This document shows positions 25,312-37,801 of a stretch of DNA of 46,205 nt, piece by piece. Source of the stretch: Clostridia bacterium. GTDB taxonomy: Bacteria > Bacillota > Sulfobacillia > SLMV01. Under the pieces are notes generated by a model that did not search any database, was not told where the DNA came from, and worked only from the letters and a program-made list of their open reading frames with translations. The first letter of the stretch is position 1. Each line of letters opens with the position of its first letter. The DNA lies in contig PUNF01000005.1 of the NCBI GenBank assembly GCA_003552525.1, positions 1 to 46,205 on the forward strand. The letters run 5' to 3'. Made by a program: the position numbers and the translations under genes.

Positions 25312-25336
25312 AATGGCAGTCTCCCCACGGGGAGTA

Positions 25337-25484
25337 CCAATCTTCGGGGTCGGGTGAGCCGGGATACTCCGGTGAGTCCCAACCGGTGGTGATGCACCCG
25401 CGCGGTGCGAGCCCACGAACTGCCCAGCAGCCGAACCGGTGAGAACCCGGTGCCGACGGTAGAGTCCGGATGGAAGAAGATTGG
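25337..25484 (+). ncRNA. FMN riboswitch (RFN element)
   Basis: The conserved RFN blocks are all present in order: TCTTCGGGG then CGGGTGA, ACCGGTGGTGAT, GCGAGCCC, CCGGTGAGAACCCGGTGCCGA split by its loop, GGTAGAGTCCGGATG and AGAAGA. Stem P1 is closed by CCAATCTTC (25337-25345) with GAAGATTGG (25476-25484). It precedes a riboflavin transporter. The likely expression platform is a downstream hairpin (GGGCGC at 25486-25491 with GCGCCC at 25505-25510), which would shut off expression when FMN is bound. Confidence 0.96.
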
Positions 25485-25543
25485 CGGGCGCAGCAAGGGT
25501 GCCGGCGCCCCCCTTCGCCCACCCCCACTGGAGGGAATTACGC

Positions 25544-36282: not shown

Positions 36283-36426
36283 GTGACGCGGAACCGGATG
36301 CGGGCGGGGTCTGGCTGGCTTTTCGCGGCCGGAGCCCTGGTGCTCCTCGGCCTCTGGCGCGGAGAGCACCTGGATGTGTTCACCAAGGCCATCACCCTGT
36401 GCCTCGAGTGCCTGGGTCTTCGGTGA
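36283..36426 (+). CDS. CD1871A-like CXXC small membrane protein
   Basis: 47 residues from GTG 36283, eight bases after GGAGG; a GTG at 36274 in the same frame is too close to that site. The peptide has one hydrophobic helix (GWLFAAGALVLLGLW) followed by RGEHLDVFTKAITLCLECLGLR, the CXXC tail I recognise from the CD1871A family of short clostridial proteins. The CXXC cysteines sit at the membrane face and may pass electrons or hold a metal. Its TGA overlaps the GTG of the polyferredoxin gene by three bases, and the thioredoxin-like selenoprotein follows, so the three form a single coupled redox operon. It is too short for most gene finders. Confidence 0.78.
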   Translation: MTRNRMRAGSGWLFAAGALVLLGLWRGEHLDVFTKAITLCLECLGLR

Positions 36427-37277
36427 GGCGAAGAAGCCGGCGTCCCCTCGTGCAGTGGCTGGCTGCCATCGGGGCGAACGCGTACATCCCCGGATGGATC
36501 CTGGGCCAGATTTACCGGGGACCGTTGAAGATGGGTTGTGTGCCCATCCTCAATTGCTACTCGTGCCCCGGTGCCCTGTTCGCGTGCCCGGTGGGTGCCG
36601 CGCAAAACGCCGCCGCCCGGGGAACCCTTCCCTTTTACGCGGTGGGAGTCGTGGCCGCCGCGGGTGCGCTCGCGGGGCGGCTGCCGTGCGGATGGCTGTG
36701 CCCCTTCGGCCTGTTCCAGGATCTCATCCACCGGTTGCGGGGTCGCCGGCGCGCGATGGCGTTGCCGCGTTCGCTGGGCTGGGTGAAGTTCGCCGTGCTG
36801 GCTCTCCTGTTGCCCGCCGCGGCCATTCCTACCGGCGCGGCGGACATGGGTTACGAGCGCTTCTGCACCTACCTTTGTCCCTCGGGTACCCTGATGGCCT
36901 CGGTCCCGCTCCTGGCGGTGGATCCCACGCTGCGCACCCTGGCGGGTCCTCTGCTCGGCTGGCGGTTTGCCCTGCTCTTTCTGGTCATCGGGACGGGGAT
37001 CTTTCTCTATTACCGACCCTTCTGCCGCGTGCTCTGTCCGCTGGGTGCCGGCCTCGGCCTGGGCAATCGGCCCTCGCTTTGGGCCGTAGGGCATGATCCG
37101 CGGAGGCGCACAGATTGTGGCGCGTGTCGCGCCGCTTGCCCTGTGGCGCTGGATCCCACCGCGGGGGGTACGGATACCGCGGAGTGCATTCGCTGCTTGC
37201 GGTGTGCCGAGGCATGTCTGCCGAAGAGCCTGCGGTTTGGCCTTCGCAATCGCATCGAGGGAGGTGATGCAGGATGA
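36423..37277 (+). CDS. Membrane 4Fe-4S protein (NapH/MauN/YccM-like)
   Basis: 284 residues from GTG 36423, coupled to the CXXC gene by a GTGA overlap. The frame stays open further upstream, but the extra residues are unlike any membrane protein and belong to the small gene in another frame. Three or four membrane helices alternate with cysteine motifs: CVPILNCYSCPGALFACP (about 39-56), PCGWLCPFG, FCTYLCPSG and FCRVLCPLG. A ferredoxin-like domain sits at the end (CGACRAACPVALDP and CIRCLRCAEAC). This layout resembles NapH/RdxA-type proteins that carry electrons from quinols or ferredoxin across the membrane. The stop overlaps the start of the TlpA-like selenoprotein, its likely electron acceptor. 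Confidence 0.85.
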   Translation: MRRRSRRPLVQWLAAIGANAYIPGWILGQIYRGPLKMGCVPILNCYSCPGALFACPVGAAQNAAARGTLPFYAVGVVAAAGALAGRLPCGWLCPFGLFQDLIHRLRGRRRAMALPRSLGWVKFAVLALLLPAAAIPTGAADMGYERFCTYLCPSGTLMASVPLLAVDPTLRTLAGPLLGWRFALLFLVIGTGIFLYYRPFCRVLCPLGAGLGLGNRPSLWAVGHDPRRRTDCGACRAACPVALDPTAGGTDTAECIRCLRCAEACLPKSLRFGLRNRIEGGDAG

Positions 37278-37801
37278 GCAAACCGACGCGATACGGGTCG
37301 CTACTTTGTGTACTCATGTTGTGCGCGGGTATCCTCTTCGCGGGTTGCGGTGACACGCCGCGCCCCGAGGAAGGGAGCCCCGCCCCGCCGGTGGAACTGG
37401 AAGACACCGAGGACGGGAACCAGGTCCGCTTTCCCGCCGACTGGGAGGGACGGGCGGTGGCCGTCAGTTTTTTCTCCCCGGGCTGACACGCCTGCGTGCA
37501 GGAAGTCCTGCAGTTGCAGGACGTGATCCCCGCATGGCGCGATCGCGGCTTCGACGTGATCTTCGTCACCCTCTCTTCACCGGACGCCATTCGGCGCTTC
37601 CGCGAGGCGCGCGACGTCGACCACATGGCGACCTATCAAGATCCCGGGGGTGCGATGCACGAGGCCTACTCCGTGCGGGCAGTCCCCACGACCTTCATTC
37701 TCGATACCGAGGGGGTGATCCGGGAGATCACCCTGGGCTGGTCCTCGGGTTCCCTGGATCAGCTGCAGTCCTGGGTGGATCGGCTCGCCCCGGAATCCTG
37801 A
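37274..37801 (+). CDS. TlpA-like thioredoxin-fold lipoprotein with selenocysteine (U-x-x-C)
   Basis: 175 residues including one Sec. The ATG at 37274 overlaps the upstream TGA and follows GGAGGTGAT by seven bases. Residues 1-25 are a lipoprotein signal (FAGC, Cys25). The thioredoxin fold then reads FFSPG-U-HAC: TGA at 37484-37486 encodes Sec71, and Cys74 is the partner, so the usual CxxC is UxxC. After the TGA the same frame continues through FDVIFVTLSSPDAIRRF, AYSVRAVPTTFILD (the cis-proline loop) and a normal C-terminus. The fit of both halves to one TlpA/AhpC-like fold rules out a plain stop. It most likely accepts electrons from the membrane 4Fe-4S protein and reduces oxidised partners outside the cell. 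The last 43 bases overlap the convergent serine hydrolase. Confidence 0.88.
37505..37522 (+). promoter_or_regulatory. Candidate bacterial SECIS element in the TlpA-like gene
   Basis: GTCCTGC and GCAGGAC form a perfect 7-bp stem with loop AGTT, beginning 19 bases after the UGA. The G in the second loop position fits the bacterial SECIS pattern. A competing stem, TGCAGG/CCTGCA at 37498-37513, is possible, so the active fold is uncertain. Confidence 0.55.

Follow-up and report, generated by a model that had tools for sequence, protein, structure and literature searches.

A gene in the Clostridia bacterium genome studied here very probably encodes a selenoprotein, with selenocysteine (Sec) at the first active-site position of a TlpA-like thioredoxin, as judged from its sequence and relatives. 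The gene lies on a 46,205-nucleotide stretch of contig PUNF01000005.1 (the window), where it is the third and last gene of a module that begins with genes for a CD1871A-family peptide and a NapH-like membrane Fe-S protein. The features concerned are:

36298-36426 (+), CD1871A-family small protein (NF040920), 42 aa, with one hydrophobic segment and a C-terminal CLEC
36432-37277 (+), NapH-like membrane Fe-S protein, homologous part (Fer4_5, PF12801, and homologues); the ORF is open from 36258 and its true start is uncertain
37260-37264 (+), GGAGG, probably the thioredoxin gene's ribosome-binding site, read directly from the sequence
37274-37801 (+), TlpA/ResA-like thioredoxin lipoprotein-like gene, with U71-H-A-C74, P138 and C25 (frame translation, Pfam, homologue alignment, predicted fold)
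37484-37486 (+), in-frame TGA predicted to be read as selenocysteine, residue 71 (TGA shared by the same-genus orthologue; other homologues have Cys or Sec)
37505-37522 (+), apical hairpin of a putative bSECIS, GUCCUGC-AGUU-GCAGGAC, loop 37512-37515, 25 nt after the UGA; conserved and covarying

The thioredoxin frame opens at ATG 37274 and closes with the TGA at 37799-37801, giving 175 aa on read-through. Around the internal UGA, the peptide reads ...AVSFFSPG-U-HAC-VQEVLQLQ..., and U71 occupies the first Cys position of the thioredoxin CxxC. A first-pass annotation of this DNA had already described a TGA replacing that Cys in SPG-U-HAC, with the frame running on through the cis-proline loop; the position of the gene and of the codon, the frame and the motif all proved right. 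The Pfam models AhpC-TSA (3.7e-17) and Redoxin (4.8e-15) cover both sides of the TGA, and P138 falls at the cis-proline position. The annotation also anticipated that standard gene calling would split the gene or cut it short. This indeed follows from the standard code (table 11), which yields a stub of 70 aa and, from GTG 37496, another ORF of 101 aa. It left out the two upstream genes of the apparent operon, so that this operon and the hairpin are additional to its content. Selenocysteine, a residue of higher reactivity, would be inserted at UGA 37484 and would act as the attacking residue in the thioredoxin's UxxC site.

Conservation of the UGA is seen at several taxonomic distances. A same-genus orthologue in G001 (L048/L088; PWSR01, Clostridia bacterium CSSed11_154) is 60% identical to the window protein and also carries TGA at this position of the alignment. 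CSSed11 is a sample name that appears in work on sediments of hypersaline soda lakes (PMC6146748). Identity to this orthologue is about equal upstream (39/68) and downstream (61/102) of the UGA, and the shared column and similar identity on both sides together exclude a nonsense mutation or chance. In-frame TGA at the U71 column was found in seven genomes of the window's class, the window's own included, and in 18 of the module loci from the scan of named genomes. More distant members also have U in that column (G058, G033, G051, G075 and G030). Others have C, namely G003 (TTTCPSC), G050 (SQGCHAC), G031 and G151, in line with the alignment that the first-pass annotation had proposed as a check. 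G050 also encodes a tandem TlpA-like pair (L056:3731-5118, minus strand), in which one member has CHAC and the other has SPPS, with both active-site residues lost.

The distribution of the two forms follows that of SelA. SelA scored over its cut-off in 23 of 24 genomes with the Sec form vs 3 of 21 with the Cys form; G003, which belongs to the same family as the window, has the Cys form and lacks a SelA match above the cut-off. When the Sec label is mapped onto a tree of 72 thioredoxins, it requires 4 changes, compared to about 20 for shuffled labels, and a Syntrophomonas locus (L103) falls in the same Sec clade. The module thioredoxin of Desulforamulus putei (L106:5178-5582; FWTTT-U-GYC) grouped with the Cys forms and has a different hairpin after its UGA, and probably represents a separate gain of Sec.

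Among 23 UGA genes, the hairpin with its AGUU loop is near-invariant. The 5-bp core around AGUU pairs in 23/23 genes, and four of the seven stem pairs show compensatory changes on both sides (e.g., C-G for G-C in the window, U-A for C-G in L163, and C-G for U-A in two TYGUINC genes). None of 500 shuffles reached its covariation score. Published bSECIS rules specify a loop of 3-9 nt, a stem of 4-16 bp, a distance of 16-37 nt from the UGA, a G within the first two loop positions, and a minimum free energy of -7.5 kcal/mol or lower (PMC13188914). The window hairpin agrees with these rules, having a 4-nt loop, 7 bp, a 25-nt distance, and an energy of -12.8 kcal/mol when folded by itself. If the whole region is folded to minimum energy, another pairing beats the hairpin, which is the best fold only with the first 9 nt left out, as if these were ribosome-covered at the UGA. 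SelB would recognize the hairpin from its position downstream of UGA 37484.

The hairpin also leaves its mark on the protein. In a first thioredoxin alignment of 11 members (seven Sec and four Cys), the peptide LQLQ was present in 7/7 Sec members and 0/4 Cys members, and its second Leu codon is TTG in 18/18 genes vs 18% of the other Leu codons of the same genes. As read from these sequences, the LQLQ peptide is imposed by the SECIS hairpin. A TYG-U-INC thioredoxin in two genomes of the class (L054:3273 and L055:3345, plus strand), which we take to be of the NHL-repeat type, has the same AGUU hairpin with a CCGC/GCGG stem. Within the window, a scan for TGA followed by NGTT hairpins gave four more matches, none of them in a frame resembling a known protein by eye. 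Elsewhere in the window lies an FMN riboswitch (25336-25485, plus strand; RF00050, 92.5 bits).

The window's genome (G000) is a metagenomic assembly of 224 contigs that is 92% complete, and the full set of SelA, SelB, SelC, and SelD was found in it. This included a tRNA-Sec (69.8 bits; anticodon tca according to ARAGORN), SelB (297.6 bits), and adjoining genes for SelA and SelD, with an in-frame UGA of its own in SelD (KAGUGCKMGP). The first-pass annotation had called for a search of this kind and had named two observations that would speak against Sec, close relatives ending at the UGA and a genome lacking selB or selC; the G001 orthologue runs on past the codon, and both genes are present. 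Directly upstream of selB lies a TrxB-like (thioredoxin reductase) ORF (L047:2174-5059), named by sequence reading only.

Two other readings of the UGA were weighed against selenocysteine. The table 11 frame ends at the TGA and a separate ORF follows, as would be expected of a true stop codon or a nonsense mutation, which would make the gene a pseudogene or a fragment of 70 aa. The recurrence of TGA at the aligned position in the orthologue and in many relatives, the equal protein identity on either side, the conserved SECIS hairpin, and the full Sec machinery make this highly improbable. Alternatively, a reassigned code or suppressor tRNA could deliver Cys or Trp, and homologues do have Cys in this column. 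However, TGA also terminates the thioredoxin gene itself, and a tRNA-Sec with a tca anticodon is present. Moreover, the Sec state tracks SelA, and the hairpin is maintained although this ties the protein to LQLQ, leaving reassignment with similarly slight credibility.

The name TlpA-like is right for the fold of the putative selenoprotein. In an AlphaFold2 model (mean pLDDT 91.6), U71 sits just before helix 72-81 and P138 before strand 139-143, as in thioredoxins. ResA-type reductases were the best matches among PDB structures (TM-score about 0.9 by length of ResA), and DsbE and CcmG were also matched. The protein scored 59 bits with the ResA model, below the cut-off of 170, and hence is not ResA itself but is filed by fold only; nor is it a Cys-Cys TlpA/ResA protein, its first motif residue being Sec, which is a known variation of the motif. 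It shares with ResA, TlpA, and CcmG (DsbE) the fold, the active-site position, a putative N-terminal hydrophobic anchor, and predicted thiol-disulfide chemistry, but differs in having Sec for the first Cys, in its low identity (22-25%), and in its NapH-like Fe-S neighbor in place of CcdA. Residues 7-23 form a hydrophobic helix and a lipobox-like ILFAGC ends at C25, suggesting that the protein is probably lipid-anchored. The product would be an exported, likely lipid-anchored TlpA/ResA-like thiol-disulfide reductase; we infer its export, its lipidation, the incorporation of Sec in the cell, and the reductase rather than oxidase direction.

Proteins of this general kind have been listed before. 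The PF00578 UxxC "Prx-like thiol:disulfide oxidoreductase" is a listed selenoprotein (PMC13188914, PMC9312934), and a 2006 list for Syntrophomonas wolfei includes a "distant Prx-like thiol:disulfide oxidoreductase" (PMC1794560). The window thioredoxin, which matches PF00578 and carries UxxC, corresponds to that definition and hence belongs to a kind of selenoprotein listed since 2006. The S. wolfei protein is probably a member of the same clade, the two being set together here by description. These lists give the domain and the motif, but not the FFSPGUxxC/LQLQ clade or its operon.

The two upstream genes point to a possible source of electrons. The CD1871A assignment is supported by 44.5 bits with NF040920 (curated cut-off 32) and by the C-terminal CXXC. 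The NapH-like protein scored 57.8 bits with the NapH/MauN model (cut-off 213) and 50.5 bits with a second NapH model (cut-off 234), and is thus NapH-like only, outside NapH proper. Its stop codon overlaps the thioredoxin start (ATGA). We scanned GTDB genomes with the NapH-like protein as the query and kept the best 80 loci. A CD1871A gene was located just upstream of the NapH-like homologue in 79 of these, and a same-strand thioredoxin lay beside it in 61, 18 of which have Sec. The CD1871A CXXC peptide and the NapH-like Fe-S protein would re-reduce the thioredoxin, doing the job of CcdA/DsbD. Our analysis of the module suggests, at slightly less than even probability, that the two proteins pass electrons across the membrane to the thioredoxin.

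The distribution of DsbD is consistent with such a role. No match to PF02683 (DsbD_TM) was found in the window's genome at E <= 1e-3. In the window's class, DsbD_TM is lacking in 9/13 CD1871A genomes vs 25/141 (Fisher p = 2e-4), and in the phylum in 44/60 vs 85/339 (Fisher p = 1e-12), although these p-values overstate the association, since the genomes are related. The assemblies compared are metagenomic and incomplete. DsbD_TM does occur in 16/60 CD1871A genomes of the phylum; hence, replacement of DsbD/CcdA by the module is not strict. Within the window's family, G000, G001, and G003 have the module and no DsbD_TM. In G002, also without DsbD_TM, a contig edge leaves the thioredoxin end of the module, together with the same downstream genes. 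In G004, G005, and G007, DsbD_TM is directly beside a TlpA-like gene, and there is no CD1871A.

A related model, DsbD_2 (PF13386), did match a protein of G000 (L168:3320-3976, minus strand, contig C198) with GPC and PCP motifs, and we dropped the statement that the window's genome has no CcdA-like protein at all. This protein adjoins a cysteine desulfurase and ThiI (neighbors named by sequence reading) and could be a sulfur- or selenium-linked conduit. PF13386 was also matched in G001-G003, and so a CcdA-like conduit may still exist in these four genomes. In six other module genomes (G058, G033, G075, G031, G151, and G153), both the DsbD_TM and DsbD_2 models are absent.

Two further readings concern function rather than the codon. 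As the best Pfam models are AhpC-TSA and Redoxin, and as peroxide removal would benefit an anaerobe, the protein might be a Sec-dependent peroxidase (AhpC/TSA type) or a thiol oxidase instead of a module-fed reductase. We consider this unlikely, given that the motif is UxxC as in thioredoxins and not the TxxC/TxxU of peroxiredoxins, that the nearest structures are ResA, DsbE, and CcmG, and that the neighbors are electron carriers. A more serious contender, although still less likely than not, is that the NapH-like protein and CD1871A peptide have a separate respiratory or flavin-linked function and are merely adjacent to the thioredoxin. Respiratory enzymes and flavinylated domains are common recipients of electrons from NapH-like proteins (PMC8238504), and 19 of the best 80 loci have no same-strand thioredoxin within the stretch examined, with a contig end behind some of these cases. 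Nonetheless, the thioredoxin is kept on the same strand at the large remainder of these loci, the overlap of the NapH-like stop and thioredoxin start in the window speaks for a joint role, and the association with DsbD/CcdA is negative in both the class and the phylum.

The module would resemble CcdA/DsbD only in its inferred role, the supply of electrons to an extracytoplasmic thioredoxin. There is no sign of homology, and the module has Fe-S clusters and a CXXC peptide instead of the cysteine pair of DsbD_TM. Membrane Fe-S proteins of the NapH-like PF12801 (Fer4_5) type have been proposed as transmembrane electron carriers in flavin-linked systems (PMC8238504); the partners there are flavinylated FMN-binding proteins, whereas those in the window are the CD1871A peptide and the thioredoxin. 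Searches of the literature on CD1871A and on TlpA/4Fe-4S protein/CcdA turned up no account of this module in the role of CcdA.

Taken together, these results identify a very probable but hidden selenoprotein gene, broken up by routine annotation, in which the SECIS is so constrained that it dictates four amino acids. They also bring forward, as a possible replacement for CcdA/DsbD, a conserved Fe-S module that about 15% of the sampled genomes from the phylum carry. We tentatively propose, as an idea nearly as likely to be right as wrong, that many anaerobes of the Bacillota, among others, use the CD1871A/NapH-like pair in place of CcdA/DsbD, as a so far unrecognized transmembrane electron conduit that would drive extracytoplasmic thiol reduction, and that in a large clade Sec became fixed in the partner thioredoxin since the conduit favors a very reactive acceptor. 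If true, the conduit would explain how anaerobes that lack DsbD keep their exported thiols reduced.
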